From a virus, in the IMG/VR virus record IMGVR_UViG_3300046753_000575, positions 1-31,714 of that record: 31,714 nt of DNA; one strand, given 5' to 3'. The translations under genes and the position numbers were made by a program. Positions 15,601 through 30,409 of this stretch are shown here, in pieces. Each line of letters starts with the position of its first letter. Within the stretch, counting starts at the first letter, position 1. The notes beneath the pieces were generated by a model. That model ran no database searches and had not been told where the DNA came from. It worked only from the letters and a program-made list of their open reading frames with translations.

Positions 15601-16631
15601 GTGGTGTACTAACTACTCAAGATTTCTTGAGACTCAGCGGAACTGAATTTGTTTCTGTTGCTGATGTTATTGCTAGCGATGTTCAAAAACTAACCATCAA
15701 TGATGGTGGTATCCCAGGATCTGAAGTAGTTACATTTGAAGTTGATTCTACTACTGGTGATATCATCTCTACTGGTTCACTTGGATTGGGACTTGGATAC
15801 AACAGACTTACTGTTGATGGTAACAGTGGTAACATTGCAACCACAGGTACGCTAGATGTTAACAAATCCATTACTTTAAATGGAGCAACAGTTCCTCTTG
15901 CTGAAGTATTCAATATCAATAACGGTGCAGGACTTACAACCTTCCAGGTTGATTCTGCAACTGGCAACCTATTGATGAATGGTGGCAACATTAACATCTT
16001 TGCTGTTGATGGAATCACCCCACGTCTAACAATGGATGGTGTTGGTGACTTCAAAACATATGGTTCATTCTCTGCTCTTGGTGATGGACTATCTGAATTT
16101 GGAGGTGACGTTAAGATTGCTGGTGATCTAACTGTTAATGGTGGTGATCTCGTTGTTAACAAGAACGGAAGTGAAGTCTTTGCAGTTGATGATGATGGTT
16201 CAGTCAACATTGCTGGTATTAGTAACTACTTCTCACCTACAGGTGCGATGAAGTGGGAGTACTCAGCAGACTCTATCGTTATTGGTGAAGCAAATACTAA
16301 CTACTTCTTGAATATTTCTGGAAATACTATCTTTAAGTTACCTGACTCACCAGAGATGGGTGACATGATTCGCATTATAGATATTGGTGGTACTCTAACA
16401 TATAATCAGACACTAATTGTTCGTGCGTTTGCTTTGACTCCTATTCAAGGAACTACATCTAACACAGGAACTGCACTTGTTAACCTAAATGCAGGTTCAC
16501 ATACTGGTGGTGAACTAGTTGTCCAGACACCTAATGCGTCGTTTGGTTTAGTATACGCAGGAATTTCCACATCAGATGGTAATCCTGGAGCACCTGCATC
16601 TAAAGCAGGTTGGTATTTAATCGAGGTATAA
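3654..16631 (+). CDS. Giant beta-helix tail-fibre-like virion protein, 4325 aa
   Basis: This is a large virion structural or fibre protein of the kind found in cyanomyoviruses. Residues 30-95 begin a right-handed beta-helix (RPFKTIQRAFIEV, then MLMPGNHYIDNRPG). Strands that appear to continue it resume near 985-1110 (GGAIVPRGCSLIGYDLRRT, TGGCYLWQFTIKDGD) and near 1420-1470 (ESGGDMSITNSNSNFGNTSL). Repeat-rich segments at about 98-960 and 1580-2010 look inserted. The C-terminal third has fibre-type modules: ESPVTFNNTITVAGKATFAG near 3053, GNLKIEDDISVDGGDI near 3480, and VNGGDLVVN near 4160. The end (ELVVQTPNASFGLVYAGIS) resembles other cyanophage fibre C-termini. There is no S74 chaperone domain. 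A perfect late promoter precedes it, and it is followed after four bases by a collar-domain gene. It is probably a host-contacting distal tail or baseplate-associated fibre; the exact position in the virion is unknown. Confidence 0.88.
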   Translation: MPLTRLDNLYSSKTGKYLYVSPDDFNATDELDNRGNSPLRPFKTIQRAFIEVSRYSYLPGSNNDRFDQFSIMLMPGNHYIDNRPGLVTENVVEARYFDAANLINANRQEIIDWAVAQVPVEHPDFYYPGDPQTGEWSRYKDAFRLIQKNRGEIIDRAVAEVTVDHPDFFFPGDSQTDTGSRYADAYRMIQKNKSQISQDAFNFMNANNPPSPLPSGYNSSCVRDIKHMMDAVTLDVFQGEGNVHTRNFIKQYFNSEGTDWVGPKKFYTPTNATYNPASGEVVVTFPQSHSLTTGERIYIKEGGLSFTCDMDGNQAVKSYPRRGEDPYAIKGFTITATTADTITFLAGAAGTNKTWTPSSAVYNAATGDLTLSLGQHGLAVGKHVVLEDNSFTYTCDQDGNTVQKTYPRPGVDPYAGKSIEITSVSSATATATAALYTASSGDIELTIANHGFQDGDYILVTDNSLQFTCDLDSNTSVKSYPRPQYDYPSGRWMEVSNTTTNTFTINVGPSSYTGNHTFAGATADGILHQTGDITINVGDGGSASGSVHQFVSATAGAVKFEPNTTHQFDSALEGAIESDTVGLRGEESHALTAFSKAVKYMKLAITNNYVSTSSPGTEYQDFSVTPDPNTSDNTDLTSCSDVQTYIDNLYSVIDSVFSNSDLQLRNGLFDLSNVLPAEVTTTKLGPGELKCKRDVGQFVDYLGLDVHAVGGNVYTRKLLQNYFDASGNNWVTDGLQGEVAQSRTVFSKAIEQMLLAITNQLHAYKDTTITAGFSTFGQGPVIQENLLSGNPAACADVQTLINNLGAIVDQVISDENLSNLPEETQSAIQNAGEAKCKRDAGIIIDALVSDIRSDGNANIITSAKAYFDRFGVPITNGLLGEQNESITVFNAIADHAKLAVSNRLLSKDLTISYGPAYANANTADVPYSGSGNPAVCQDVQASISTLIQIVVDTIQAGNLDSLAAIKVTGVLPSFNYNRALEEWQDNSIVDLSNADNVLYKFNAAKGGAIVPRGCSLIGYDLRRTVVRPLYVPDPADTTQPRTSIFNLTGGCYLWQFTIKDGDLSAQSPLYDASAGVGKVYYQNGNTSLAIPEYSHHKICIMEYADRSDLDNYYEKVGKAFQQFQQSIDDGGLQSLVQENRIVGPLSDSRTIESIKIDDFATFSGTLNNTETISNVTNADELKVGFEITTTDVSVTIEPNTTVANISGTTVTLSKPVVGSGVKSMKASFGYVTATVTTKIDHGYFEGQYVAIINSGLSDEINGTFKVIEINQVNPKIFKYEVYGKTAASLSLVSGQTYLSGEVGGVSTNAVVLAEIDSVESASPYVFNCSIRSTWGQCGMWADGSKATGFKSMVVAQYTGVSLQKDDRAYIRYDRFTNTWNQASLTDAFATVPYHTKGDAYWKDDWRNFHIRASDDSFIQCVSVFAVGFFDHFLMESGGDMSITNSNSNFGNTSLHSIGYKGFAFNQDKGGYVTDIIPPATISASEVEINQWYTLDVDASNSRTNHTRLYIAGDDISDPEKKPATSINGFRLGARSGEQLLVNLDRYATEPTGPNEFSAQLEPSGFKTWTVGVETLTPASANINNSAQDAANRIEDNKEFIQSEAYQYIIEKNPGLLTKAGITISKCERDIGYFVDAVVNDLRLTGNINSIQAAEGYYIAGTLAYISNELNETIDALEYVKTIMIAAMRNFDFVVRGCAVFDNSAIVNVPTTQGIMVGMSVAEYSAGSFTGSTLNPGAVPTANIPLDTVVKRIISSTQIELGTQNSALNNGFSQAAAGDSPNAILWFSTASGTWTNIAPTTDTTITPYNEVDGNGDPLPECVGIATLIEGYFEQVFLVLNNGYTDLGGTEVDAHNAIISNKRFIATEAVERVATDATYSGTKLGQGLLASTGETIEDACIDDVETVLNEIAFDIKFGGNSRTWDAANLYKSSASVIGEEAESIAVFNIARDLAIAAMRQETITVQGTHGLTQVIDSQVPPDYDQNGVLENPLCAGIANQITTSIALITSGINNGSLGNKTMPIISSITKVEPTLNAGALASRATLFSLATGTFLGNPNPHNLESGTAVRLVPRAKAGRNPDKRLIRLPKGFDTNTKYYVIAPGRNLYPENFANQSNVVTVTEASGTSFSTPDATRASAAGLYRSVIAQPKEDTNTNVNATYTALASGTGLKFDIVVNSDGSIQAITGNAGDSKIVDPGSRYQNGDLVVISDGQLGATGAADIEIEITAVSAADYPGAFDGTETNKLMLATSPENAAAGIYMYSPETDSVDPDVEIEIQQYVLDGKYNLHRYKCSVVGASEIESSVAHIFDVPAPNTTPQEVFVRVAANIQGSTLPQLSGTQASLEIPTDTIYYVRYVSNKRFTLHENISDAESGDRALTFVSGTGLDFYVYSNKRTSPVKFDPTYTSSINTTGLWYLNVVDESSTASVYNRYSILSRFHGGAELSTDYQFKTDPTLDTRYLRVKDPREKENRVYRLRYVVPSYLETVRDPLNGFVIRTRTDDKRRLVPQRVLLKPIQGNSITTAKFYNPIGATERIGATKAALAAGDSNRPLDPAVLDLLPEQQNLYDPYVAPKQIEFGSKIASTIQSAKEVTPLGQSDTFLEVTLFDHTIINETVKNEIFTVVSVNNLQGGYFAPNATQSNAGNKISWSTVSGDNTSQGTAYLQAEVNDVDGFAAGYTFVLKNVVGDLYYAPNSIVRFTQGAASMDLIAQPNSFGDLDGLDKAVRTNYLYRVEGSNVYTIAPGDTVSDDEGNSYYVSQIEDQGDFEDTFYIFDIDTLQERIPQQQDGIYYLTCVRGNISPFPTGSGVGENFRNFKFSQPISQLYPINYKNDPLWFQVDGGTGVRDTAIVDVPQTVSAADNYVHGLVTVNDAKSSSTREMVVDMTLNSMLDQYQYTNSVTYTNPNTGISTILDNRIQAQEGNATSGSEDRMIPISGDSQFPTERKLYVELRRPSIARSGNHTFEYLGFGPGNYSTGFPLRQEVVLTDKQDFYAQSKREDGGIVFYTGLNSNGDLYIGNKKVNAITGEETFLESAALVDSEDEDDDIGSLVTTFESPVTFNNTITVAGKATFAGPLDISVDPPEGAALRVQSNVSGGTDDITLFRGSWPDPTDGDVVIAENSVRAALYKLNARRQINSVEGQNYSFRTHFAAGEPSNIVPWQNSDRYLTEQEVIYNGTAPVEFGDILLKGDTVGLSGSLGWIYVNDYLTFEGSVLKIESTGTEIIKVTLAAGQTNSGNKITEDSFIRIQNFENTDINGTWPITSLLVGAPVFTPSASFFYVRTDTVIDSGLSYDWSNQATGADILRSTANWKEVGVLGAESIRTRTEERGDFRVGINTVARTDHNAVSKGNVDDFTIPRANLDVVGTAFISGQTLVTYDIAGNATNRYDDNSMNSDVREALTGGDLASQGFIKQDNAFLVGGDSNNLTQSATLRVSTSDVVTPATSTYKTGGRLGVNTTLGLLPEQELDRNFVVFGDARITGNLKIEDDISVDGGDINSTSNTFSFINNNSTILNLMGEGQQINFANNTTQDQTLAIGNSANNQVVRIGSNAGTTLLSIHKNSTTASVDIATVSADPANSCEVSIGGAYGNTNSSTLIGTYQTIVSGSLEIGNGVAAGTGTSNIFCRTKKAILFSDDRTTQVDAFTSANRLLLGSLGGTSTIRNSLGVEASLRVEGNIRLNGGTNAGIIEIGRGRFSTPIVAHSTGSLDLPNIDFYKYQSTGRQIVTSGNALWGGTNDLAGGGQIAGFDNVQTTDPNSLRAAGTYSSVQAQGGQGGGAKFDVLVAFDGIVTITITASGTGYNNNDQLTLPDAALGGGGAPDITLDINGVNDPGNVYYLPISTPAATDFFIGDLLLLDRGNAATPDTVTVTGGGSITGLRDEAKSEIVRVVGLTNLTNPNDSEGFRLAVERAQEGTGDYISANNYEGWTDHPGGQYGTVIAKLIKQSAASFITGSDVNQDDELDQTEFVGIGAGSANVRIGVAEFGGVLTTQDFLRLSGTEFVSVADVIASDVQKLTINDGGIPGSEVVTFEVDSTTGDIISTGSLGLGLGYNRLTVDGNSGNIATTGTLDVNKSITLNGATVPLAEVFNINNGAGLTTFQVDSATGNLLMNGGNINIFAVDGITPRLTMDGVGDFKTYGSFSALGDGLSEFGGDVKIAGDLTVNGGDLVVNKNGSEVFAVDDDGSVNIAGISNYFSPTGAMKWEYSADSIVIGEANTNYFLNISGNTIFKLPDSPEMGDMIRIIDIGGTLTYNQTLIVRAFALTPIQGTTSNTGTALVNLNAGSHTGGELVVQTPNASFGLVYAGISTSDGNPGAPASKAGWYLIEV
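3945..4260 (+). repeat. Tandem 43-residue (129-base) repeat in giant gene
   Basis: Three copies start at residues 98, 141 and 184 of the giant protein (bases 3945, 4074 and 4203). Copies 1 and 2 are full length, each with a helix of the form N-R-x-E-I-I-D-x-A followed by HPDF, a PGD turn and SRY. Copy 3 is truncated after the helix. Exact in-frame 129-base spacing indicates tandem duplication. Confidence 0.85.
4311..6500 (+). repeat. Cys-anchored helical repeat block 1 in giant gene
   Basis: Two alternating motifs recur. Type B is C-x-R-D followed by a helix with D-A/Y and often GGN or DGN plus a Tyr-ending helix; its cysteines are at residues 221, 691 and 836. Type D is C-x-D-V-Q-x-x-I-x-x-L; its cysteines are at 639, 794 and 936. 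Order is B, D, B, D, B, D. A helix with T-V-F/A-F-S/N followed by A-x-x-N-R/Q-L lies between B and D. The coding is mixed with the TCD repeats. Confidence 0.75.
4467..5199 (+). repeat. Three diverged TCD/SYPR repeats in giant gene
   Basis: Copies begin near residues 272, 360 and 434. Each has Y-N/T-A-x-x-G-D/E, then N/S-H-G/S-L/F, then a Thr-Cys-Asp core (Cys308, Cys395, Cys469), and then K-S/T-YPR. The spacings are 87 and 74 residues. These look like small beta-domains inserted in the beta-helix protein. Confidence 0.8.
8391..9700 (+). repeat. Cys-anchored helical repeat block 2 in giant gene
   Basis: The same module family as block 1, about 650 residues further on. Helix motifs with N-K-x-F-I-x-x-E-A occur near residues 1592 and 1848. 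Type B cysteines are at 1626 (C-E-R-D) and 1898 (C-I-D-D, with KFGGN following). Type D cysteines are at 1820 and 1992. Two complete module pairs are present, supporting repeated duplication or transfer of one domain into different places of the same protein. Confidence 0.72.
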
Positions 16632-16635
16632 TTCT

Positions 16636-17937
16636 ATGCCCTTCTATCAGGGAATTAAAACAGCAAAAGCTGCCGCCATCGGTACAATTATGCCCTGGAC
16701 TGGAGCAATCTCCAAAATTCCAGCAGGTTGGATTGTATGTGACGGCAGTACTATTTCGGCACGAGATTTTCCCCTACTTGCTAGAACAATTCAAGATACT
16801 TATAATGCAGGTCCATCAACTTTTGGTGGTACATTTCCTACCTATTCAGGTGATATTGTACTTCCAGCATTGATTAATAGACCTTTATGCGATATTGAGT
16901 CAACGTATTTTGGTGCAGGTAATACAGGTTTACCTCAGGATGAAGACAGTCTTGCGTTTTCAGAAATTAGTCCATACATTGGACCAAATACTGATAACGG
17001 TGTTCCTAATACTTTCAATGACGTTGCAACTGATGTAATTTTTACTTTGAATGAACGTGAGGAAACTGCCGAAGGAAATTACTTCTACGGCGGAAAAATT
17101 TCTGGCAATTTTGTGGTCCCTGGAACTGGAGAAGGTTCTAAAACTGTATACTTTGGACCTAGAAAACTAGGAAGAGCACATTTGAAAGGACATAAACATG
17201 GTGGTAGGAATATTCCTACTATTGGGTCAACTAATCTTTCTACACCTGGAGAAGGTGTTATTCCATGGAGTAACGTCACATTTAACTTTGAATTAGATGT
17301 TACTGATAATGAACCAGGTCCATCTGGTGATACTTTGGAAATGTCATTCGATATGAATGATCAGCAACGTGGAAAAAATGGATTTGGTCAAGGACCAGCT
17401 GGCAGAACTGTTGGTGGTGTTAGAGCAGAAAGTCCACCTATTAACTGGACTCCAAAAGAATGTGTATGGAATCCAATTAATGTTAAAGAAACTGAACCAA
17501 GTAATCAACGTGGATCTATTAATGGTTTTTCGGGTGGTGTCATTGGTGGTAATTCAAATGATTTTAAAGAAGAAGCAAAATATAAAATTGGTGGGGGTGA
17601 TATTATCATTCCATCTGGTTTTACCACATACTACGTAGATCAGGCTGATGGATCTAGAACAGAATATGATACATTTAATTCTAATCCTGCTTGGGATTTT
17701 AATTTAAACCAAGCATCTCCTGGTGTTCAAGATGTCATCAGACCACATACTCATGAAGAATTTGAAGTTAACTTTGTAAGATCTGGTTTGCAACCAGAAT
17801 CTAGTCTTCAAGTTGACGTTTCTGCTCCCAATGCAAATCTAAACCTAGATAATACTAGAAACCAGGGTGTTTTGCAAATTAATTTTAATACCACCCAACC
17901 AGGCGTCACTACACTGTATCTAATTAGAGCATACTAA
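16636..17937 (+). CDS. Tail-collar-domain fibre protein, 433 aa
   Basis: A phage tail-collar (T4 gp12-like) protein, probably a short-fibre or fibre-tip component. The collar domain spans about residues 15-95: GTIMPWTGAISKIPAGWIVC, DGSTISARDFPLLA, and then a LPALINRPL strand. Two His-x-His sites are visible, H186-K-H188 (with H182) and H371-T-H373. In gp12, similar HxH sites bind a metal in the receptor-binding tip. The C-terminus (TTLYLIRAY) matches the hydrophobic end found in related collar proteins. GAGG at 16623-16626, inside the upstream gene, is the ribosome-binding site. The stop overlaps the next start (TAATG). It works with the neighbouring collar protein and the giant fibre; the division of labour is not known. 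Confidence 0.85.
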   Translation: MPFYQGIKTAKAAAIGTIMPWTGAISKIPAGWIVCDGSTISARDFPLLARTIQDTYNAGPSTFGGTFPTYSGDIVLPALINRPLCDIESTYFGAGNTGLPQDEDSLAFSEISPYIGPNTDNGVPNTFNDVATDVIFTLNEREETAEGNYFYGGKISGNFVVPGTGEGSKTVYFGPRKLGRAHLKGHKHGGRNIPTIGSTNLSTPGEGVIPWSNVTFNFELDVTDNEPGPSGDTLEMSFDMNDQQRGKNGFGQGPAGRTVGGVRAESPPINWTPKECVWNPINVKETEPSNQRGSINGFSGGVIGGNSNDFKEEAKYKIGGGDIIIPSGFTTYYVDQADGSRTEYDTFNSNPAWDFNLNQASPGVQDVIRPHTHEEFEVNFVRSGLQPESSLQVDVSAPNANLNLDNTRNQGVLQINFNTTQPGVTTLYLIRAY

Positions 17938-18833
17938 TGGCAACATCCAATACAAATAACTACGCAAGAGTCAAATCAAAAGGTTTTGGTGGAGTAACAG
18001 GATCAATTCAAATCCATGCTACTCAATTTACCCAGAGTATTTCTGATCCTAATAACCAGACATGGAAAGATTATCTTCCAGGTGGGTTTTTGCCATGTAA
18101 TGGTGCTATTAAAAATGCTGATGAATTTTATGCATTATCAGAAATTTTAGGCGTTGGTAATGAAACTAAGTTTAAAAAACCTGGTAGTATTGTACGTGAC
18201 GCTGATCCAGATATTAATGATCTAGGACAATTTCAATTGCCTGATCTTGGATCTAAAGTTATTATTCCTAGTAGATCAGTTGGTGATTATATCAATTTTT
18301 TAGCAGATGATGAAGAAACCACTAGAGTTGGTCCAGCAGTAGAAGTTTTTTGTAATGAAGGAAATCAATTGACATGTGATTTTCTTGGTAGTTTTGAAGG
18401 TACTAAACAATTTGATAATTATGATTTTAAATCTGCTCCTAAGTATGCATTTGATACTACTTCTAGTACAGAATTTCTAGATATTGAAAATATTCAAGGG
18501 CATGCTCATAAAATGTCTAACCGTGGTGTTCTAAACTATACTGCACAGCATGCTGTTGGTGGTGATGGTAAAGACCAAGGTACTTTGTCAGGTAACTCTG
18601 GTTCTGGTAACTTCATGGAAATTAGTGATATCAGTAATCAATTCCCATCACAACATGAACATAGGATAGACAAACCTTCAGTTTATGAACATAATTTTCA
18701 ATATCAACACGGATCTTTTGATATTCCTGCTGATGGAGTATATTCTACTGTAAATGTTGGCACAGAAAGTTTTAAGAAATTAGACAGAGCTACAACACCG
18801 TTTATTATCGTATTGTATATTATTAAATTTTGA
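17937..18833 (+). CDS. Tail-collar-domain protein, 298 aa
   Basis: A second, shorter collar-type protein. Residues 40-105 show the collar pattern in diverged form: DYLPGGFLPCNGAIKNADEF, LSEILG, and FQLPDLGSKVIIP. His-x-His sites are H189-A-H191 (IQGHAHKMSN) and H240-E-H242 (PSQHEHRID), placed much as in the neighbouring gene. The C-terminus ends FIIVLYIIKF, comparable to the hydrophobic tails of the other collar proteins. It starts by a one-base overlap with the previous stop, so the two are translationally coupled. It is probably an adaptor or tip partner of the 433-residue protein; paralogy by tandem duplication followed by divergence is likely. Confidence 0.8.
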   Translation: MATSNTNNYARVKSKGFGGVTGSIQIHATQFTQSISDPNNQTWKDYLPGGFLPCNGAIKNADEFYALSEILGVGNETKFKKPGSIVRDADPDINDLGQFQLPDLGSKVIIPSRSVGDYINFLADDEETTRVGPAVEVFCNEGNQLTCDFLGSFEGTKQFDNYDFKSAPKYAFDTTSSTEFLDIENIQGHAHKMSNRGVLNYTAQHAVGGDGKDQGTLSGNSGSGNFMEISDISNQFPSQHEHRIDKPSVYEHNFQYQHGSFDIPADGVYSTVNVGTESFKKLDRATTPFIIVLYIIKF

Positions 18834-18837
18834 TATT

Positions 18838-19002
18838 ATGACGTTTTTACAAAAGGTACAACAAAAGGGCAGAGAACGTATGGATATATGTGCTACATGT
18901 CCTGAGTTTAGATCTTCTACAGGACAATGTAGAAAATGTGGTTGTTTCATGAAAGCAAAGGTATTATTTCCTATTGCAGCATGCCCAATAGGTAAATGGT
19001 AA
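18838..19002 (+). CDS. Cys-rich zinc-ribbon-like mini-protein, 54 aa
   Basis: A short protein with four closely placed Cys pairs: C-A-T-C near residues 18-21, C-R-K-C-G-C near 31-36, then F-M and a terminal C-P-I-G-K-W. This Cys pattern, including the CGCFM core and the CPxGKW end, matches small phage proteins annotated as DUF6171, recalled from memory. It likely binds one zinc ion. It starts four bases after the collar gene and ends 19 bases before the first adhesin gene, so it sits between two structural blocks. The role of the family is not known to me; a small accessory or assembly factor is possible. The start ATG at 18838 is the only one that keeps all Cys residues and fits the gap. Confidence 0.8.
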   Translation: MTFLQKVQQKGRERMDICATCPEFRSSTGQCRKCGCFMKAKVLFPIAACPIGKW

Positions 19003-19021: not shown

Positions 19022-20797
19022 ATGGCTAATTCAACAGTAACGGTTAGTTTTTCTTTTGGAGGAACGTCAGGAACTATTCCTGGTGGTGCCATTGGTGTAT
19101 CATTTTCAGTTGGTGGTGGACGTGGTGGATCGGGTGGTTCTGATGCTGGCGGTCCTGGTGGCAGCGGTGGTAATGGAAGATATGGAAGTTTTAATATACC
19201 AACCTCATCATCGCCACGTTCATTTACTGGATATATTGGATATGCAGGATCTAATGGTCCTGGTGGTGCTGGTGCTGTTAATGGTGGTCCAGGTGGACAA
19301 AATGGTCCTATTAATGGAGATGGTGGTACTGGAGGTGCTGATGGAACTAGTGGATGGTCTGGATGTGGAGGTGGTGGAGGTGCTGCAGGAGCATTTTATC
19401 TAAATGGAACACTAGTAGCAGTTGCCGCAGGCGGTGGTGCTGGCGGAGGTGGATCCTATGCTTGTGGAGGACCACAACGTCCTGGTGGTAATGGAAGTGG
19501 TGGTCAAGGATTTAGTGCAACTAATGGTGGAATTGGTATAGGTAATGGTGGTAATGGTGCTAACAAAGGTGGTGGAGACGGCGGCGGTGGTGGCGCTGGT
19601 GGCGGCGGAGCAGGTGGTGGAGGCGGCGGCGGTGCAGGTACTGATTGTTCTGTTGGTGGTGGTGGCGGCGCTGGCGGTGGATCAAGATATCGTTCTGATT
19701 TAATTTCACTTGCCAGTCAAGGCGGTGTTGGTGGCAATGGATTTGGGTCTTTATCGTATGCATTAAGTATTGCTGAAATTAATAGTTTTACGGTAAGTGA
19801 TAATTCTATTATTTTAGGAACAACAGTAACTTTATCGTGGTCTGTTAGTGACTCTAATTCCCAGTCAATTGATCAAGGAATCGGTGGTGTTGCTTCAAGT
19901 GGTAGTATCAATGTAACCCCATCAGATGATATTACATATACACTGAATGCGTTTGGTAATGGAGGAAATGATTCGGCAAATGTAAGTATAGTTGTATACG
20001 ATCCTGTAGTTGCAGATATATACTCAACTCCTACTTCAATTGTTGCTGGTGGTTCTACAACATTACAATGGACTGTTACTGGGGATGCGTCAGGAAATGC
20101 TCTAATTGACCAAGGGATTGGTGCTGTACCATTTAGTGCTAATCAAAGTGTATCTCCAACTACTACAACAACTTATACCATATCCGCATCAGGTCCAGGT
20201 GGTTCAGATACAGACTCTACAACGGTTATTGTATATCAAAAACCACAAATTTCTGGTAATTTGCCATCTCAAATTAATTATGGTGATGCTTTATCCGTTC
20301 CAATAACCTATAGGTATGCATCTCAAGGTATTGCTGTTACTGAATCTTATTCATTTAGAGATCCTGCCACTGGTAATATTGTCAGTAGTACTCAATCTTC
20401 TACTATGCCTGCAACAGGAAACGATGAAAATTCTGCACAAGTAGTTAATAATTTTGAACCTAATATTCCTTGGGGTACAGAGGGACCATTCACTTGTCAG
20501 TTTACTTTAGTTGCTAATGGTAATGGTGGTTCTACTCAATTGAATACTAATGTTATTAATGTAGAGATTGATTTGGAACCAATCTATATTAATATACCAA
20601 ATAGCGAAGATCAACTTCCAGGAGAACCAGAAGTTATTGCACCCGAAGAAGAAATTGTTATCAGTGATCCAATTGTCATTGAAGATATAGATATACCAGT
20701 GGAGATCAAAGCAAATAAACCTATTCAGGTTAAGTTTGATGATGATGATGGAGATATTGAAGCATCTTGGAATAACGTTCGCAAAAGTAGTTTATAA
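19022..20797 (+). CDS. Gly-rich adhesin with Ig-like repeats, paralog 1 (591 aa)
   Basis: A modular surface protein. Residues about 25-235 form a Gly-rich head with runs such as GGPGGSGG and stretches of GGGGGAGGG. The composition resembles the polyglycine-helix receptor-binding heads of T-even gp38-type adhesins, but I see no sequence match to them. Two Ig-like domains follow (about 252-327 and 327-410), with SIILGTTVTLSWSV and STTLQWTVTG strands and TTTTYTISASG ends. The C-terminal domain (about 411-591) is shared with the next two genes: PSQINYGDALSVPITYRYAS, PIYINIPNSEDQLPG, IPVEIKANKPIQVKFDD, and SSL at the end. AAAGG at 19010-19013 is the ribosome-binding site. It is probably a fibre-tip protein for host recognition, with the C-terminus attaching it to a fibre; this is inferred. 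Confidence 0.78.
   Translation: MANSTVTVSFSFGGTSGTIPGGAIGVSFSVGGGRGGSGGSDAGGPGGSGGNGRYGSFNIPTSSSPRSFTGYIGYAGSNGPGGAGAVNGGPGGQNGPINGDGGTGGADGTSGWSGCGGGGGAAGAFYLNGTLVAVAAGGGAGGGGSYACGGPQRPGGNGSGGQGFSATNGGIGIGNGGNGANKGGGDGGGGGAGGGGAGGGGGGGAGTDCSVGGGGGAGGGSRYRSDLISLASQGGVGGNGFGSLSYALSIAEINSFTVSDNSIILGTTVTLSWSVSDSNSQSIDQGIGGVASSGSINVTPSDDITYTLNAFGNGGNDSANVSIVVYDPVVADIYSTPTSIVAGGSTTLQWTVTGDASGNALIDQGIGAVPFSANQSVSPTTTTTYTISASGPGGSDTDSTTVIVYQKPQISGNLPSQINYGDALSVPITYRYASQGIAVTESYSFRDPATGNIVSSTQSSTMPATGNDENSAQVVNNFEPNIPWGTEGPFTCQFTLVANGNGGSTQLNTNVINVEIDLEPIYINIPNSEDQLPGEPEVIAPEEEIVISDPIVIEDIDIPVEIKANKPIQVKFDDDDGDIEASWNNVRKSSL
20003..20248 (+). repeat. 246-base segment shared with 24078-24323
   Basis: This segment covers the second Ig-like domain of paralog 1 and aligns without gaps to 24078-24323 in paralog 3. 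Both copies are 246 bases. Most bases are identical and one exact run exceeds 35 bases (around the Ser-Gly-Pro-Gly-Gly-Ser codons). The flanking regions are less alike. This points to recent duplication or gene conversion. Confidence 0.85.
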
Positions 20798-20799
20798 CT

Positions 20800-23376
20800 A
20801 TGTCCAGAATTACCCAACAATTAGTTCAAAACGGCACAGTTACAATTCCTCAATATGCAGAGGATATTCAATTTGTTCTTAGTGGTGCTAAAGGTGGAAC
20901 TGCTGGTCCATCATATGATATCGATGGACGTGGTGCATTACCATGTTCCCCAACATATTATGGAGCAATTGGTCAGTATATGACAGGGACTCTTAGCAAT
21001 AGTCTAGGAGGAAGTTATGGTTCTACTATATCAGTAATTCTTGGACAACCTGGAGCATATAACGCTGCTTCAGGAGGATATGATGCTGGATCTGCAGGAG
21101 GATATGGTTATCATTATGGCGGAGCAGGTGGTGTTCAACCAGGCAACGAAACTTGGTGTGCTGGTGGTGGTGGCGCAGGTGGCGGTGGATCTAGTGCCAT
21201 GTTTTTGGGTAGTACTTTAATAGCAGAAGCAGGTGGAGGTGGTGGTGCAGGTGGTGGATGTGTAGATTTTCAGTTTTTAGGGGGACAAACTGGACAATAT
21301 GGCACTACGATAACGACTAGTAATAATGGCAGTAATGGTGGCACTGGAGGCAATGGAAATACTTCAGCAAATGCTGGAGGTGGTGGAGGTGGTGGAGGAA
21401 ACCCAGGCGGTAGTGGCGGCATTGGATTCGGTGCGGGTAATCATATTCCTGGAGGTGGTGGTGGCATGGGTAGTGGATATTATAATACTTCGTATGTAAA
21501 TAGTGCATCAATTAGTAATCCATCACCAAGCACGAACAGTTTTGGATATTTTGAAGTTTCTTATGTGATAAACATTCCTATACCTCCACCTACAGTAAGT
21601 CTCACTTCAAATGATGCTGACAATACAGTAGTTACAGGTACTAATGTGACTCTTACCTATTCTGCTACTGATGTTGGAACTGGTGCTGGTGATAGTACTT
21701 CTTTTACTGCGACAGATGCTTTTGGAACTGTAACTAATCCTATTGCTAGTCCAGTGGGAAGTAGTGGTGTATATTTTCCTACTCCCTTAACTACAACAAC
21801 CTATACATATACTGCAACTAATATTTCTGGAACTGCTACAACCAGTTTAACTATTACAGTTGTATTGGAACCACCAACAGTAAATCTTCTTTCAAGTGAT
21901 GGTGATAATAGGATTAATCTTGGACAGTGTGTGAATTTAACTTATAGTACATCTGGATATTTTATTACTAATAGTACTTTAACAGGTTTAGCAAATCCAG
22001 GATCTAGTGGAGTAACGCAAGTCTGTCCTACTACAACCACAACTTATACATTTACATCAACTAATGCTGCTGGATCTGATAGTAAATCGGTAACTATTAC
22101 TGTTATTCAAATACCAGTTGTAAGTCTTACTTCAAATGATGCTGATAATGCTATCATTCGTGGTCAGTCTATAGATTTAACATGGTATACTGGTAGTGAT
22201 TTTATTACATCAACTTCTTTAAGTAATTATGGACCAACACCAGGAACTAGTGGTACTGCATCATTTTTCCCACAGGATACTACGTTATATACTTACACCG
22301 CAACAAATCCTGCTGGTTCTACCAGTGCTGGTTTAAGTGTTACTGTTTATATTCCACCTGAAGTTTCTATCAGTTCTAATTATAGTACACTTATTATTGG
22401 GGAATGTGCAACTCTTTCTTGGGTAGGAATAGCAAACAATGTTACATCGTCTTCCTTAACTGGTTATCCTGGTTCTCCAGGAACTTCTGGTAGTACTACA
22501 GTATGTCCTACATCAACAACAACCTATACATATTCAGTAACAAATTTAGGTGGAACTGATACTGCTAGTGTAACTATTATTGTTTATGTACCACCGACAG
22601 TAACTCTCACTTCAAGTGATGCCAATAATGCTATCATTCGTGGTGAATCTGTAACTTTATATTGGGGAGCAACAGGAAGTACAATGACTTTCACTTCCTT
22701 AACTGGTTACAATGGTTCTCCAGGAACTTCTGGAAATGTTACTGTCACTCCAACTGTAACAACAACCTATACATATACTGCAGTAAATCTTGGGGGTTCA
22801 GCTACAAAGTCAATAACTATAGTTGTATATCAAATACCACAACTTAGTGTCACTCAAGTTAGTGATATCGATTATGGAGAGTCACTAAGTATTCCATTGA
22901 CGTATAGGTATGCATCTCAAGGTGTTTCTGTTAGTGAAACATATTCATACAGAGATCCTGCTACTGGAAGTTTTATTTCTACTACTGAATCTACTCAAGT
23001 ATTGGCAGGAAATGGTGATGATCAAAGTGCTGCTGAAATAGTTACTACTTTCAATCCTAATATTACATGGAATGATCAAGGACCATTTACTTTACAATAT
23101 AATTTTACTGCTACTGGGAATTCTGGACAGGTAATTGCTAGTACACCAATCATCAATGTAGATGTAGATTTGGTGCCTGTTGGTATGAATGTTCCATCTA
23201 GTACAGATCAGTTGCCAGGATCAGAAGTTTTGAGTCCAGATGATGAGACTGTCATAAGTGATCCTATGATGATTGAAAATATTGATATTCCAGTAGAAAT
23301 TAAAGCAACTGAACCTATTCAAGTTAGATTTGATGATGAATCAACGTGGCATGATCTTCGTGAGAGTGACCTATGA
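20800..23376 (+). CDS. Gly-rich adhesin with five Ig-like repeats, paralog 2 (858 aa)
   Basis: The same architecture as the upstream gene but with a longer stalk. Residues about 20-230 are a Gly-rich head (AGGGGGAGGG and PGGSGGIGFG runs, with scattered Cys and Tyr). Residues about 262-680 are five Ig-like repeats of roughly 80-90 residues. The C-terminal domain (about 680-858) is homologous to those of its neighbours: IDYGESLSIPLTYRYAS, IPVEIKATEPIQVRFDDE, ending RESDL. It starts two bases after the previous stop and shares ATGA with the next gene, so the three adhesins form one translational unit. It is likely a virion fibre-tip or decorating adhesin. The number of Ig domains probably sets reach. 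Confidence 0.78.
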   Translation: MSRITQQLVQNGTVTIPQYAEDIQFVLSGAKGGTAGPSYDIDGRGALPCSPTYYGAIGQYMTGTLSNSLGGSYGSTISVILGQPGAYNAASGGYDAGSAGGYGYHYGGAGGVQPGNETWCAGGGGAGGGGSSAMFLGSTLIAEAGGGGGAGGGCVDFQFLGGQTGQYGTTITTSNNGSNGGTGGNGNTSANAGGGGGGGGNPGGSGGIGFGAGNHIPGGGGGMGSGYYNTSYVNSASISNPSPSTNSFGYFEVSYVINIPIPPPTVSLTSNDADNTVVTGTNVTLTYSATDVGTGAGDSTSFTATDAFGTVTNPIASPVGSSGVYFPTPLTTTTYTYTATNISGTATTSLTITVVLEPPTVNLLSSDGDNRINLGQCVNLTYSTSGYFITNSTLTGLANPGSSGVTQVCPTTTTTYTFTSTNAAGSDSKSVTITVIQIPVVSLTSNDADNAIIRGQSIDLTWYTGSDFITSTSLSNYGPTPGTSGTASFFPQDTTLYTYTATNPAGSTSAGLSVTVYIPPEVSISSNYSTLIIGECATLSWVGIANNVTSSSLTGYPGSPGTSGSTTVCPTSTTTYTYSVTNLGGTDTASVTIIVYVPPTVTLTSSDANNAIIRGESVTLYWGATGSTMTFTSLTGYNGSPGTSGNVTVTPTVTTTYTYTAVNLGGSATKSITIVVYQIPQLSVTQVSDIDYGESLSIPLTYRYASQGVSVSETYSYRDPATGSFISTTESTQVLAGNGDDQSAAEIVTTFNPNITWNDQGPFTLQYNFTATGNSGQVIASTPIINVDVDLVPVGMNVPSSTDQLPGSEVLSPDDETVISDPMMIENIDIPVEIKATEPIQVRFDDESTWHDLRESDL
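21584..22830 (+). repeat. Five Ig-like domain repeats in paralog 2
   Basis: Each repeat starts PPxVxLxSxDxxN or a close variant and has a G-x-x-V-x-L-x-Y/W strand. It continues with a Ser/Thr loop such as TSSSLTGYPGSPGTSG, and ends TTTYTYTxTNxxGxxxxSxTITV. Cys residues appear in repeats 2 and 4 only, at matching places (GQC/GEC and VCP), so two of the five domains could hold an internal disulfide. Confidence 0.85.
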
Positions 23377-24860
23377 CCCAAGATTTTAGTTTTACAAGTA
23401 GATCTCCTAATACTTCAGGTTTTAGTGGTCAATATTTTGAGCCAAATTGGTCTAGTTTCATGAACATCTATAATATAGGTGGTAGTGATACTTCTGGTAC
23501 TGCTGGTCCTAATAGAACATTTTATTGGACTATCACTTTTAATAATTATGGTAGGCAAAGATTTTATGCCAATTGTGATGATAGTGGTGCAATTTATATT
23601 AATGGCACCTATGAAATGGGGATGGGTGGTTTCCGAGGACAAAGTTTAGTCACTACTTCAAATTACTATCCTCCAGGTACATATACTCTTAGTGCTAATG
23701 CTAATAATAGTGGTGGTGGACCTTGGGGTATTGCCATAGATTGGGTTGGATATATCCCACCACCAGCAGGATGTACTAATCCCCTTGCTTCAAATTATAA
23801 TTCAGGTGCATTAGTTGATGATGGATCGTGTATATTTCCTTCACCATCTATCACTTATAGTATTAATCCATCTAGTATTATTCAAGGACAAACGGCAACA
23901 TTGAATTGGTCAGTATCTAATTCTACATCTCAATCATTTGATCAAGGTATTGGATCAGTTGCTAGTTCTGGTAGTAGAAATGTGACTGGTGTTATGAATA
24001 CCACCACCTATACTTTATCGGCAACATATTATTCTTATACTAGTTCTTCTAGATCTTTAACTTTAACAGTATATGAACCTGTAGTTGCAGATATATCTTC
24101 TTCCCCAACTGCTATAATTTCGGGAAGTTCTACGACATTACAATGGACTGTTACTGGATCTACATCTGGAAATGCTATTATTGATCAAGGAATCGGTGCT
24201 GTACCATTTAGTGCTAATCTAAGTGTATCTCCAACTACTACAACAACTTACACTATATCTGCATCAGGTCCAGGTGGTTCAGATACAGACTCTACAACTG
24301 TTGTTGTATATCAAAAACCACAACTGACTGTTAATTTTCCGACTAATATTGAGTATGGTGAGTCTCTGTCTATCCCAATAACTTATAGGTATGCATCTTC
24401 GGGTGTCTCTATTCAGGCAACATATACGTATAGAGATGCAAATACTGGAAATACTGACGATGTTACTATTGTTAACTACAGTTTAACTGGTACATCTAAT
24501 GACGAAAGTTCTCCTGCATTAAGTCAAAATTGGAGTCCAAATATTCCATGGAATGGTAATGGTCCATTGAGAGTTAATTTTACTGCTACTGCTAATGGTA
24601 ATGGAGGAAGTACTTCTTTAAGTAGTAATTTTTATGATGTGATAGTTGATTTGACACCTATCTATATTAATATACCAATTAGCGAAGATCAAATTCCAGC
24701 AGACCCTGAAGTTGTAAGTCCAGATGCAGATGTTGTTCTTAGTGATCCTATTATTATTGAAGATGTAGATATAAGTGTAGAAATCAAAGCAAATAAACCT
24801 ATCCAAGTTAGATTCGATGATGAGGAAACCTGGAACAATGTTCGACAAAGTTCTCTATAA
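23373..24860 (+). CDS. Adhesin paralog 3 with PA14-like head and DGSC motif (495 aa)
   Basis: This paralog has a different head. Residues about 1-130 resemble a PA14/GLEYA-type carbohydrate-binding fold: FYANCDDSGAIYINGTYEMG, a Gly-rich loop, YPPGTYTLSANANNSGG, and then GIAIDWVGY. The next segment (about 133-155) is a Cys-flanked Ca-binding-like motif, CTNPLASNY followed by DDGSC. Two Ig-like domains (about 157-235 and 235-317) follow, and then the shared C-terminal domain ending IPISEDQIPADPE, IKANKPIQVRFDDEE and SSL. There is no Gly-rich head. It starts by ATGA overlap with paralog 2. It is probably a sugar-binding receptor recognition protein. The PA14 assignment is by pattern only. Confidence 0.75.
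   Translation: MTQDFSFTSRSPNTSGFSGQYFEPNWSSFMNIYNIGGSDTSGTAGPNRTFYWTITFNNYGRQRFYANCDDSGAIYINGTYEMGMGGFRGQSLVTTSNYYPPGTYTLSANANNSGGGPWGIAIDWVGYIPPPAGCTNPLASNYNSGALVDDGSCIFPSPSITYSINPSSIIQGQTATLNWSVSNSTSQSFDQGIGSVASSGSRNVTGVMNTTTYTLSATYYSYTSSSRSLTLTVYEPVVADISSSPTAIISGSSTTLQWTVTGSTSGNAIIDQGIGAVPFSANLSVSPTTTTTYTISASGPGGSDTDSTTVVVYQKPQLTVNFPTNIEYGESLSIPITYRYASSGVSIQATYTYRDANTGNTDDVTIVNYSLTGTSNDESSPALSQNWSPNIPWNGNGPLRVNFTATANGNGGSTSLSSNFYDVIVDLTPIYINIPISEDQIPADPEVVSPDADVVLSDPIIIEDVDISVEIKANKPIQVRFDDEETWNNVRQSSL
24078..24323 (+). repeat. 246-base segment shared with 20003-20248
   Basis: The second copy of the near-identical Ig-like segment described at 20003-20248. It lies in the matching place between the first Ig domain and the shared C-terminal domain of paralog 3. 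Paralog 2, lying between them, lacks this version. Confidence 0.85.
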
Positions 24861-24863
24861 ATA
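24856..24863 (+). promoter_or_regulatory. T4-type late promoter (TATAAATA)
   Basis: An exact consensus octamer overlapping the stop codon of adhesin paralog 3. It ends 36 bases before the ATG at 24900, the same distance as at 3610-3617. It probably starts a transcript for the fibre gene at 24900 and the oxygenases downstream. Confidence 0.75.
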
Positions 24864-24899: not shown

Positions 24900-27800
24900 A
24901 TGCCAATATATCAGTATTCAACTACACCACTATATGCGTCAGACGGACAGACAGTTCAGTTCCGATATGAAGCGCCGCTAGATTATGCGGATATTCAACA
25001 GGTAATTATTGAAATTGGTGATATTGTCACTTTTTGGGTAATTGAAACTATCCCAGAAGATATTGCACCAAATCCATTTGATCTAAGGGAAATTAATCCA
25101 GCTGAAATACATGATCCACCAACCAATCCTCAAATCTATACATATGCTGAGACTGCTGCTGGTCCTGATGCTGCCCCTGCAGGTGGTGGAGGTGGTACTC
25201 CATTAAGACTTGGAGAAGAAGTTATTACGGTTTCAGGTCTTTCTGATGGTACAGAAGTAAATTTGATCGTTAGTAGTAATGGTCTAGTTGCAGATGAATG
25301 GGCATGGAGAGTAAGAAATTGGAACGGAACATCATATGATGCATGGCCTGCATTTACTACAGGATCAAACTGGCCATCACCTGTTCCAAAGGTAAAAAAT
25401 GAAGATCAGATTCAAGTTAGAACTGCTTCAACAGTATTTGCAGCAGATAAAAGAAAACTTACTGTTCAAATTGGTTCTGCATCTGCCGACTGGGAACTAC
25501 TAACAGGTTCATTACCTGTCAATACACCAACACCAGCACCACAATTTCAATCATTAAACAATTTAAATTTAGGTGATATTGTATACAGTAATGTTGTACA
25601 AATTGCTGGTCTCACATCATCAACGGCAATAGTTAGTATTATACCTGGTACTGGTTCATTTGCTATTTCTAATAGTAATGCTACAACAACAAACGCAGAT
25701 AATTTTGAGGTATTAACTGGTGCTAGTTTTGGAACTAGCGGTACTATTAGTAATGGTCAATATCTCCAGTTAAAAGGTGTAGCGTCATCTAGTTCTAACT
25801 CACAAGTAAACTATAATGTTTCTATTGGTGATGGTATTAATGTTTCAGCATGGTTGATTGAAACTGGTGTTGGTGTTGATCTAATTGTAGATTCATTTTC
25901 ATTTCAAGATTTAGTTGAGCAAGTACCTGGTACACAAGATATACTATCAGAAATAGAAACTATTAGTGGTTTAACTCCTGGTGTTACAGTTCCAGTTACT
26001 GTTAATAGTTTTTCTCCACCAGAAGCACTTCCAAGAATTAGAGTTAATAGTGGTTCGACTGGTCCTATATCTAACATTTTCGTAGGTAATAATAGTACCA
26101 TTCAATTGGTAATGAATGCTCATCCTGACTTACCTATTGCTCCTGGAACAAAATCATCTAGTGTTAGTATTAGTGTAGGTAATAGAATTATTAATAGTTG
26201 GGATATTAGCAATTGGTATGGTCCTGATGAAACTCCATCATTTGTTGATCCTGCTGATGCTATAAACCAAACTCCAGGTGGTACAGGTGTACTTGGACCA
26301 GTTCTTTTAGAAAATTTCAACGTACCTATTCAAGTTTCGATTACAAATCCAATTGCGTATGATGAATTTGATGTAGCAACTGGTGAGTCGGTTAATCCTA
26401 TCTTGGTTTCTATTGATGGTGGTGTAATTCAATCACTTCCAGCAACAGTTCCTAATAACCCAACAGGTCAACCTGTATCAGTTGTATTCTTTACTGATCA
26501 ACCAGGAAATGCTAATGTTGATCCTGTACAAGGTCTATCACATTACCTAGAATTTGACATTACATTTGGTCTTGCTCCCACTACTACAGTAAAAGTTTTT
26601 AACTATGCAGTGAAACCTACACCACCTGCATATGTTAGTCAGTGGTATACTAACAAAAATGATAAGTTTGATGAGGCAGCATATGAAGCAGCAGGATCAC
26701 CTGTAGCAAATGCTGCTGATTATTATAGTGCAAGTAAATTTGATGGTTTGACAATTGGTACTGTTGTTGCTGTACCCAAAGAAACTATTTCTGGATATGG
26801 TGATCTTGCAAACAGATATCCTGGATTCCTGGAATGTAACGGACAACAACTTTTTGCTGCTGATTATCCTTGGTTGTGGGATAGTATTGAAAATACATAT
26901 GGTGGCAACGCTAGTTATGATGAGGCAACTAAAGTATATTCAGGTGAGTTTAACATACCTGACTATAGAAACAAAAGACTAGCAGGTAAAGGTATTGTTG
27001 ATTCATCTAGAGGTGCATCTGCATTCTTAGAAGCAACTAATCCTGGTGGTTCTTATGATATTGTTGGATCTACTGGTGGTTATTGGTATGTGTCTGATGT
27101 AGGTGTTGCTGGTCCTGATCCGTTAGAGCAAGTATTCACTACACCAGGATCTAATCAAGGTACAGAATCTCCATTCTATGTACTAGGTACACCAAAAACA
27201 TTTGGTTTATCCGAACTAACAGGTGAAGTTAGCTTTACTGTTACTGGTAGTGTTAAGGCTACTATTGGTCCAGTACGTGAGCAAAGAATTGGTGTACCAC
27301 CACATGACCACTTCTTTGTTGTTGGGCAACCAGAAAATGCATCAGGTGATCCAGTAATTCCTTGGGAAGTATGGGCATACTATAAAACAGAAAGCGATTC
27401 GGGTCCAAACAGTGACTCAACAGGATCAAGAGAAAGTGGTGAGAAACAAGATGAACCATCATCTGATACTGTATATTCTGAATGGAAACAGCTAAACGAA
27501 CTTAACGCTTCTCAGTTTAACCAAGCATTAGCAGATACTAATGGTGGATCACTAGAAGATGAATTGCCATTAGGACCAGAAGGATCTAACTCAACATCAA
27601 CATTTGGTAACTATTGGGGATCACCTACTAGTGGTCTGCCGAATCAAAATGGATTGTTTAGAAAAGCACCAGGCATTTCACTTAATGATGCTGGTGTTCT
27701 TGATACAAAGGAAGCGAAAGCTAGAATTGATCAATATGTATCACCGACAGCAGAAGCAACACATGCTCACCAACTAGGAACAATTGAAGTTACTGATCTT

Positions 27801-28043
27801 GCTACGGATTATACCTATGGTAATGGAAATGCCTTTGGTGGATTCACTCAGGGTCTAGCAACATATGGATCTGATACTGAAGTGACGTTCAACCAATCAG
27901 ACGTTCAAATTGAACTAAATGAGGCAAACTTTACTTGGAGTAATTCAAGCAAACCAATTCCTAGCGTAGCACTGGATCCACAAAGAAGGGTTCCTATCCT
28001 AGCACCCTTCCATAAAATGAAATATATAATAAAGGCGTATTGA
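24900..28043 (+). CDS. Large collar-domain tail-fibre-like protein, 1047 aa
   Basis: Residues 1-600 are beta-rich repeats without a recognised domain. They include a Pro/Gly linker near 90-100 and several segments built on V-x-x-L-x-x-G-T/D-x-V with SVSIS-type strands. A tail-collar domain lies at about 615-705: LTIGTVVAVPKETISGYGDL, ANRYPGFLECNGQQLFA, and FNIPDYRNKRLAG. HxH sites are H802-D-H804 (VPPHDHFF) and H955-A-H957. The C-terminus (FHKMKYIIKAY) matches the hydrophobic ends of the other two collar proteins. A perfect late promoter precedes it, and no strong Shine-Dalgarno is seen. It is probably a fibre or short-fibre component made late, with the collar part contacting the baseplate or the receptor. 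Paralogy with the 433- and 298-residue proteins is limited to the collar and HxH region. Confidence 0.82.
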   Translation: MPIYQYSTTPLYASDGQTVQFRYEAPLDYADIQQVIIEIGDIVTFWVIETIPEDIAPNPFDLREINPAEIHDPPTNPQIYTYAETAAGPDAAPAGGGGGTPLRLGEEVITVSGLSDGTEVNLIVSSNGLVADEWAWRVRNWNGTSYDAWPAFTTGSNWPSPVPKVKNEDQIQVRTASTVFAADKRKLTVQIGSASADWELLTGSLPVNTPTPAPQFQSLNNLNLGDIVYSNVVQIAGLTSSTAIVSIIPGTGSFAISNSNATTTNADNFEVLTGASFGTSGTISNGQYLQLKGVASSSSNSQVNYNVSIGDGINVSAWLIETGVGVDLIVDSFSFQDLVEQVPGTQDILSEIETISGLTPGVTVPVTVNSFSPPEALPRIRVNSGSTGPISNIFVGNNSTIQLVMNAHPDLPIAPGTKSSSVSISVGNRIINSWDISNWYGPDETPSFVDPADAINQTPGGTGVLGPVLLENFNVPIQVSITNPIAYDEFDVATGESVNPILVSIDGGVIQSLPATVPNNPTGQPVSVVFFTDQPGNANVDPVQGLSHYLEFDITFGLAPTTTVKVFNYAVKPTPPAYVSQWYTNKNDKFDEAAYEAAGSPVANAADYYSASKFDGLTIGTVVAVPKETISGYGDLANRYPGFLECNGQQLFAADYPWLWDSIENTYGGNASYDEATKVYSGEFNIPDYRNKRLAGKGIVDSSRGASAFLEATNPGGSYDIVGSTGGYWYVSDVGVAGPDPLEQVFTTPGSNQGTESPFYVLGTPKTFGLSELTGEVSFTVTGSVKATIGPVREQRIGVPPHDHFFVVGQPENASGDPVIPWEVWAYYKTESDSGPNSDSTGSRESGEKQDEPSSDTVYSEWKQLNELNASQFNQALADTNGGSLEDELPLGPEGSNSTSTFGNYWGSPTSGLPNQNGLFRKAPGISLNDAGVLDTKEAKARIDQYVSPTAEATHAHQLGTIEVTDLATDYTYGNGNAFGGFTQGLATYGSDTEVTFNQSDVQIELNEANFTWSNSSKPIPSVALDPQRRVPILAPFHKMKYIIKAY

Positions 28044-28053
28044 TATTATTCAT

Positions 28054-28773
28054 ATGAAATTTGGAAATGGTGAAGATAAGACAACACCTTATCGTCCTCT
28101 TAGTTTAATGATCGATGAGCGAATGACCGACTATGAGTGTGAGGATTTCATTGCAGTCTGGGAAAACTTTGTTCCTGCAGCATTTTGTGATCAATTGATT
28201 AAATGGTTTGACAATAAACTTAATAACGGTCAGGTAGATTTTCATGCAAGTGATGAACTAGAAGAAACCGAATTTGGTGAAGATACTGATCAAGATACTG
28301 AAAGCGTGGTTGCTTATGGTGAGCAGCAGTATGGTAGTAATATGAGACGTAAAGACAAGTCTATTCTTGTTAATTACGCAAATGAGAAAATTACATATCA
28401 AGTTAATCAATTCTTGAAATCATGTGTTGCTCATTATATACATGAGTTTGGACAACTTAAAGGTGTCGGGATGTTTTCATCTGACATCAAGATGCAGCAC
28501 ACAACACAAGGTGGTGGATATCATCTATGGCACTATGAAAATTCTTCTGGTTCACATGCTGCTAGAGAACTTACGTGGATGATTTATCTTAATGATGTAG
28601 ATGATGATGCAGGTGGGGAAACCGAATTTTTATATCAACATAGACGCATTAAACCAACAAAAGGAACAGTTGTAGTCTTCCCTGCAGGTCTCACTCATGT
28701 GCATAAAGGTAATACTTTACTAAAAGGTGATAAATATATTGTGACAGGTTGGTATATCAAAGCGTCAATATGA
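28054..28773 (+). CDS. 2OG-Fe(II) oxygenase, P4H-like with HxE
   Basis: A 239-residue dioxygenase. The core is WHYENS (H160-x-E162), TWMIYLNDVDDDAGGETEF near 173-191, and the distal segment FPAGLTHVHKGN with H217 (or H215). Lys227, ten residues past H217, is the prolyl-4-hydroxylase-type 2-oxoglutarate ligand. The acidic ligand is Glu rather than the commoner Asp, which is unusual but known in some members. Residues 1-40 precede the domain, and an acidic stretch near 68-85 (EELEETEFGEDTDQDTES region) is probably a loop. It starts 10 bases after the fibre stop with no clear ribosome-binding site and overlaps the next gene by ATGA. Cytoplasmic; the substrate is unknown, and the setting suggests a fibre or host surface-related target. 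Confidence 0.85.
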   Translation: MKFGNGEDKTTPYRPLSLMIDERMTDYECEDFIAVWENFVPAAFCDQLIKWFDNKLNNGQVDFHASDELEETEFGEDTDQDTESVVAYGEQQYGSNMRRKDKSILVNYANEKITYQVNQFLKSCVAHYIHEFGQLKGVGMFSSDIKMQHTTQGGGYHLWHYENSSGSHAARELTWMIYLNDVDDDAGGETEFLYQHRRIKPTKGTVVVFPAGLTHVHKGNTLLKGDKYIVTGWYIKASI

Positions 28774-29714: not shown

Positions 29715-30409
29715 TTTATAGATTTAAATTACTCTCACCCGATGAGTTGAAGCGAATAAACTACAAATTTAATGATTGCACCCATTGGAATTCGGGTAAG
29801 GTGCAACTTAATGGCGAAAGTGTTGAAGATGGTCAAGTTAAATGTAACAAGTTCATTGATCAACACTCATCAGAATATAAGTATTGCATTGAAATAATTA
29901 ATAAGGCATTGCAGAAAAGCAAACGCTTTAAAACAACATATGCAATGAAAGATATCACTCAACCAATGCTCACTGAATATGAGACTGGTGGACATTACAA
30001 TCTTCACATTGACTCCGTTGAGATTAATAATCTTAGAACAGATCATAGTATGACTCTGTTTTTGAATGAACCAAGTGAATACGAGGGTGGTGAGTTAGTT
30101 CTCAGTCTTTCTGATACTGTTCAAAAAATTAAAGAACCAGCAGGAATGCTTGTAATATATCCTACTGGACTACTACATGAAGTAACTGAGGTGACATCTG
30201 GTCATCGCCGTGTTGCAATTATGTGGTCACAAAGTCTTATCGATGATTATCTACTGAGATCTCAGGTTATAGATTTAGGTAGAGCAATTGGTAATGTCAC
30301 TCACTGGTGTAATAAGAATAATGTGGATGCAAAAACTACACAGAATCTGTTAGTTCCACTTGAGCAAGTTAGAAACAATTTTGTGAGAGAATATGGAAGT
30401 TTTGACTAA
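29711..30409 (+). CDS. PKHD-type 2OG-Fe(II) hydroxylase
   Basis: A 232-residue dioxygenase resembling the PiuC/YbiX (PKHD-type) family. The triad is H99-x-D101 (HYNLHIDSVE) and H156 (GLLHEVTEV), with Arg166 ten residues later as the 2-oxoglutarate anchor (HRRVAIMWSQSLI). The SMTLFLNEPSEYEGGELVLS strands near 116-135 and the WSQSLIDDYLLR helix are typical of the family. The extra C-terminal helices (about 185-232) also fit. Members in bacteria are linked to iron acquisition and to hydroxylation, with unclear substrates. It overlaps the previous gene by ATGA and the next oxygenase by 17 bases, making a co-translated set. Confidence 0.85.
   Translation: MIYRFKLLSPDELKRINYKFNDCTHWNSGKVQLNGESVEDGQVKCNKFIDQHSSEYKYCIEIINKALQKSKRFKTTYAMKDITQPMLTEYETGGHYNLHIDSVEINNLRTDHSMTLFLNEPSEYEGGELVLSLSDTVQKIKEPAGMLVIYPTGLLHEVTEVTSGHRRVAIMWSQSLIDDYLLRSQVIDLGRAIGNVTHWCNKNNVDAKTTQNLLVPLEQVRNNFVREYGSFD

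Follow-up and report, generated by a model that had tools for sequence, protein, structure and literature searches.

The three-gene cassette studied here probably encodes exchangeable adhesins that dock on a gp12-like tail fibre by split-domain complementation. In this model, each adhesin would consist of a head, an Ig stalk, a further Ig-like domain and an 80-residue docking tail. The tail would be the first half of a beta-sandwich-like repeat, probably unable to fold alone, and the product of the gene at 24900, a gp12-like fibre, would open with the half that complements it. Like the donor strand of a pilin, an adhesin tail would supply what the half-domain of a fibre subunit lacks, and the adhesin would thereby be held non-covalently. 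Because the tail type is common to the paralogs of a given phage, different heads could be mounted at the same positions, either one in place of another or in mixture. Heads would be swapped by recombination and gene conversion at the common 3' ends, while the tail stays matched to the phage's own fibre protein. The observations behind this model, all made on sequences, are a modular anatomy, a head swap, a concordance of tails with genomes, half-repeats at two cut points and the co-occurrence of tail and half-repeat.

The sequence studied, denoted as the window, is a 31,714-base IMG/VR record, and its genes match those of T4-like marine Synechococcus phages (Kyanoviridae); its nearest relatives are Sf-CH3 and Sf-FP1, followed by S-RIM44 and Syn1. 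A giant fibre gene (3654-16631), a gp12-like gene (16636) and a collar protein gene (17937) precede the three paralogs (19022, 20800 and 23373), which are followed by the gp12-like gene at 24900 and then by genes for a 2OG-Fe(II) oxygenase and a tail assembly chaperone. The identical gene order is annotated in Syn1, S-PM2, S-RIM44, S-H9-2, S-RIM32, Sf-CH11 and others. The cassette is thus syntenic, lying between the collar protein and the 24900 homolog; this homolog directly follows the final paralog in 83 of 97 loci, and six more loci leave no room for it. The 24900 product matched phrog_4924 over its full length, and its collar domain (PF07484) scored 23.5 bits against a cut-off of 24. Between the collar gene and paralog 1, an ORF of about 54 residues (18838-19002, plus strand), shorter than the ORF-length cut-off applied, carries closely spaced cysteines (MDICATCPEF..CRKCGCF). 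Elsewhere in the window, a bilin reductase gene (PF05996) overlaps a 2OG-Fe(II) oxygenase gene (2375-3614), and further oxygenases flank the tail assembly chaperone (28054-30899). In the S-PM2 record (NC_006820), 16 tRNAs are annotated within the giant fibre ORF, where ARAGORN found none, placing six tRNA-like genes upstream instead; the annotation is probably a coordinate error.

Table 1. Features of the adhesin cassette and the adjoining fibre gene, in window coordinates.
Feature	Position	Strand	Basis
Tail collar protein (phrog_4714), upstream border of cassette	17937..18833	+	profile match
Adhesin paralog 1, 591 aa, phrog_2155	19022..20797	+	ORF and profile match
Head of paralog 1, glycine-rich, ALK/LTK type	19022..19768	+	model, pLDDT mostly 80-96
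Two Ig-like stalk domains, paralog 1	19769..20236	+	model; titin Ig Z 10.7
Shared C-terminal Ig-like domain, paralog 1 (tracks head type in tree)	20237..20560	+	
Tail of paralog 1, first half of fibre repeat	20561..20794	+	profile; pLDDT <50 alone
Adhesin paralog 2, 858 aa; head glycine-rich, stalk of 5 Ig-like domains, C-terminus as in paralogs 1 and 3	20800..23376	+	
Tail of paralog 2, first half of fibre repeat	23140..23373	+	profile
Adhesin paralog 3, 495 aa	23373..24860	+	ORF, model
Head of paralog 3, jelly-roll, weakly PA14/GLEYA-like	23373..23756	+	model, profile searches
Two Ig-like stalk domains, paralog 3	23847..24311	+	model; titin Ig Z 10.6
Tail of paralog 3, first half of fibre repeat, weakest of three	24624..24857	+	profile; pLDDT mostly <50
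TATAAATA, late-promoter-like, overlaps stop of paralog 3	24856..24863	+	motif
gp12-like fibre protein, 1047 aa, phrog_4924; proposed dock	24900..28043	+	profile match
Orphan second half-repeat, N-terminus of 24900 product, residues 8-50	24921..25049	+	profile positions 64-106, 27.6 bits
Four complete ~106-residue repeats, 24900 product	25059..26585	+	repeat profile

The ORF coordinates originally predicted for 19022, 20800 and 23373 were exact; genes 1 and 2 are separated by 2 nt, and genes 2 and 3 overlap by ATGA. The three proteins share a C-terminus of about 187-190 residues, in which gene 1 is 53% and 58% identical to genes 2 and 3, respectively, and this region forms a single profile over the whole family, matching 203 ORFs in the loci examined. 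Considering the 53-58% identity and the one family-wide profile, the common C-terminal region that had been predicted is not due to chance. The predicted Ig counts of 2, 5 and 2, obtained here from models for genes 1 and 3 and from sequence alone for gene 2, hold when the Ig-like fold inside the shared C-terminus is excluded and become 3, 6 and 3 when it is included. In the AlphaFold models of paralogs 1 and 3, the head and Ig domains were confident and the tails mostly had pLDDT below 50, which fits a segment that would fold only with a partner; the low values may also come from shallow alignments (20-22 sequences).

All three proteins matched phrog_2155 over most of their length (E 1e-175, 7e-170 and 1e-145), and Pfam and NCBIfam gave no above-threshold family for the full proteins. 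The existing annotation, to which the window genes belong, comprises phrog_2155 and T4-GC 737-739 (S-PM2 orthologs, 'virion structural protein') and specifies neither function nor head types nor partner. The original prediction regarded the system as undescribed: the genes had been annotated, but we found no paper describing the system, and the open-access papers searched gave no account of half-domain docking common to several co-expressed paralogs. In Sullivan 2010 (PMC3037559), which includes virion proteomics, these genes are not named in the passages found.

Two glycine-rich heads and one PA14-like head had been predicted. The head of paralog 1 is clearly of the glycine-rich ALK/LTK fold, as its model matched ALK (7mzy_A) with Z 15.7 over 189 residues at 3.1 Å and 26% identity, well above unrelated entries, and the Bxb1 tail tip (9d93 chain Qa) with Z 11.1 and 29% identity. 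The head of paralog 2 is also glycine-rich and of a different class, with Gly_rich_2 at E 0.012, under the cut-off. The PA14-like assignment of the paralog 3 head is tentative: the head itself had no Pfam hit, PF07691 (PA14) included, one of 20 relatives reached E 0.025, below the cut-off, and one isolated head gave E 0.04. Its model, a jelly-roll, resembles the sugar-binding N-terminal domains of GH2 most closely (Z 9.4 over 115 residues). As close relatives of the cassette proteins, gp38, the grappling-hook GhpA and complement proteins were rejected; gp38 was not among the structure matches listed for the paralog 1 head, whose fold matches ALK/LTK, and the others showed generic Ig similarity.

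When the C-terminal domain was traced across phages together with the attached N-termini, the 138 distinct full-length family proteins fell into 14 BLAST groups, and a stricter rule gave 17 head classes in a 105-protein subset, so the domain is not tied to one fixed head. The kinds include several glycine-rich heads, a PA14-like one, a head marked by a DxSGSM motif, a head matching DUF5648 (E 4e-11) and others. These putative receptor-binding heads, which may bear on host range, probably bind glycans or proteins of the Synechococcus cell surface.

A complete swap was found in S-RIM44. The isolates W2_07_0710 and Np_42_0711 share about 98% DNA identity on either side of the middle cassette gene, except for an 88% stretch within the first cassette gene. 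The middle gene product has 884 aa and a glycine-rich head in one isolate, against 486 aa and a PA14-like head in the other, a glycine-rich 5' part of about 2.4 kb facing a PA14-like 5' part of about 1.2 kb. Identity restarts 261 nt before the gene end, leaving 86 codons and the stop in common, and Syn1 carries the W2_07_0710 version (99.8% identical). The predicted exchange of heads on a fixed C-terminus was therefore borne out by the S-RIM44/Syn1 swap and the 17 classes, but, as only the last 86 codons were kept, the fixed anchor comprises about 80 residues and not 180. In the middle and third genes of one genome, the last ~212 nt are 86% identical, which suggests gene conversion. Complete cassettes hold three paralogs (23 loci), two (7), one (2), four (1) or six (1). 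Some cassette proteins, of up to 1861 aa, contain two tail domains, one of them internal (ACG-2014j Syn7803US23, L014:14261-19846; also L076 and L090), and are apparently paralog fusions. Between S-PM2 and its passaged deletion mutant the cassette showed no differences, hence no sign of selection. In the S-PM2d chemostat study, the flanking ORFs 218, 219, 220 and 224 gained mutations, and its main text does not name ORFs 221-223, the paralogs (PMC9910659).

The tails follow the phage genome, whereas the preceding Ig-like domain follows the head type. In trees with few columns and many weak forks, label retention for the last 78 residues was 0.54 by genome and 0.37 by head, and for the Ig-like domain just before the tail it was 0.24 by genome and 0.56 by head. 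Likewise, tails of unlike-headed paralogs of one genome were closer to each other than same-headed tails of two genomes in 364 of 506 comparisons.

The counterpart of the tail was found in the 24900 product, whose first ~560 residues are about 4.5 tandem 106-residue repeats. With a repeat profile built solely from proteins lacking the tail, the first repeat of each of the 54 non-identical 24900 homologs consisted of a second half alone (positions 61-64 to 106), while 215 of 218 other fibre repeats begin at profile position 10 or earlier. The paralog tails span repeat positions 1 to 47-65, the missing first half. Scores above 10 bits against this profile were obtained for 91 of 105 tails, compared with 1 of 1049 tails after shuffling and 2 of 315 neighbouring segments of the same proteins. 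When tail and fibre N-terminus were joined as one string, a single whole-repeat match resulted in 90 of 94 cases, with a median of 59 bits (69 for real complete repeats), and in 0 of 94 for strings in reverse order, with a shuffled second part or with a different fibre segment. At the level of sequence, the two proteins carry complementary parts of one domain, as donor-strand or split-domain partners would.

In the window, the joined scores were 49.8 bits for paralog 1 (positions 3-106), 48.9 for paralog 2 and 44.0 for paralog 3. Taken singly, the window tails scored low (15.3 bits for paralog 1, positions 1-62; 12.7 for paralog 2; 8.4 for paralog 3), which counts against docking, as does the hhalign value of 77%. 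An initial hhalign run of the tails against the whole fibre protein gave 5%, probably due to unseparated repeats. Of the 57 phage records containing a 24900 relative, 49 showed the N-terminal half-repeat region by tblastn. Tail and half-repeat also co-occur, as S-RSM4 and ACG-2014h, which are without tails, are also without the half-repeat. After correction for the other repeats, tail divergence tracks the fibre half-repeat most (partial r 0.46 versus 0.28, 0.20 and -0.19, given without a significance test).

An unlikely alternative is that the swapped modular adhesins dock elsewhere, on the baseplate or the giant fibre, and that the half-repeats are relics of a split gene. Splitting one ORF would leave half-domains on both sides, and the last paralog and 24900 are indeed adjacent and in the same frame, with two further stops between. 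However, every paralog retains the half, which follows the genome, and in a second lineage the cuts in two proteins again match, at another point. Moreover, the repeat profile found no match in the giant fibre (3654-16631) or the other window proteins; of the partners originally proposed, the giant fibre thus gives no such signal and the 24900 product is the likely one.

The second lineage consists of Sf-CH1b and ten related contigs. Where sequence covers them, its two cassette proteins both stop at position 94-96 of the repeat, and its fibre protein begins M[SA]YTT[TN]WSVST, like the last strand of the repeat (STWTVTT), a match too short for significance by itself. Here, complete repeats lie on the cassette proteins (phrog_4924 137-508) and the fibre protein covers 517-1022. 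Given the cut at 94-96, the adhesin-fibre border has shifted, but in both lineages it falls within a repeat. We lean slightly towards the broader reading that the half-domain is a universal socket for which co-expressed paralogs with unrelated heads compete or mix, its cut point having moved with complementarity kept. A third lineage, the Sf-FR1-type phages (L101, L115-L117), has PA14-like and glycine-rich heads and a different conserved C-terminus (FDFGD...SPT), possibly a divergent form of the same docking tail. These tails gave no signal against the repeat profile, though the Sf-FR1 fibre protein begins with the half-repeat.

The claim that the three proteins are made together agrees with the distribution of a late-promoter-like motif, [CA]TAAATA, which stands before the next gene in all 45 distinct upstream sequences of 24900 homologs, nearly always 30-43 nt from the ATG, and before 1 of 125 cassette genes. 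As the motif is absent before the other 124, the paralogs probably form one transcription unit, with the fibre gene separately supplied. The window form, TATAAATA, also occurs at 3610-3617 on the plus strand, where its spacing to the ATG of the giant fibre gene, 44 nt, equals that seen at 24900. Read-through or fusion of paralog 3 and 24900 was ruled out by in-frame TAA codons at 24858, 24876 and 24891.

The docking model, in which the adhesins would be oriented in the virion with the tail on the fibre, accommodates the suggestion that the three proteins are alternative or mixed tips of a single fibre. T4 gp12 is a trimer, and paralog numbers of 1-6 mismatch three sites, which counts against docking with the stoichiometry that we infer. 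It is improbable that the tails instead pair mutually, the adhesins being homo- or hetero-oligomers held by the C-terminus; tails within one genome are alike and are unfolded in monomer models, but mutual pairing leaves the complementary second half in 54 of 54 homologs, and the co-occurrence, unexplained. Most improbable is a Hoc-like capsid decoration with the C-terminus on the phage head and the N-terminal domains exposed: Foldseek matched the Ig part to RB49 Hoc and PHROGs files phrog_2155 under 'head and packaging', but the genes always lie among tail-fibre genes and the Ig similarity is generic, as titin, ICAM and others score equally high.

The docking model can be set beside several known systems. 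In T-even gp38 the attachment part is N-terminal and the glycine-rich part follows, whereas in the cassette proteins the glycine-rich part is N-terminal and the conserved part C-terminal. The cassette resembles gp37/gp38 in adhesin exchange by recombination and in a glycine-rich receptor-binding part; however, gp38 is one adhesin on the gp37 tip, and here there are 1-6 paralogs with N-terminal heads and a C-terminal docking tail. In chaperone-usher pilins, an incomplete beta-sandwich is completed in trans by the N-terminal part of a partner. The present case, which we infer, differs in concerning a phage fibre of unrelated sequence and in exchanging half a domain (one strand in the Sf-CH1b lineage). 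Hoc of T4 and RB49 is likewise a chain of Ig-like domains with C-terminal attachment, but the cassette has a tail-fibre locus, variable heads and a tail related to a fibre repeat. The tail-tip protein of mycobacteriophage Bxb1 also places an ALK-type glycine-rich fold on a phage tail; unlike the source of the paralogs, Bxb1 is a siphophage, and we know of no Ig stalk or shared tail in its protein. In the passage of PMC4919323 citing Tetart 1998, the specificity of T-even adhesins changes via recombination between conserved motifs. Modular adhesin swapping is known from T-even phages, and the complementary half-repeats of tail and 24900 product are new.

Few receptor-binding proteins are known for T4-like cyanophages, which are abundant and whose hosts are the main primary producers of the ocean. 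This work puts forward candidate adhesins and a candidate socket for them, and reduces their proposed interaction to two fragments of about 130 residues in total. If true, the docking model would explain how adhesins are exchanged without loss of fit to the fibre, and would provide a natural non-covalent split-domain connector. On the broader reading of a universal socket, one phage lineage could carry mixed receptor-binding tips and exchange heads freely.
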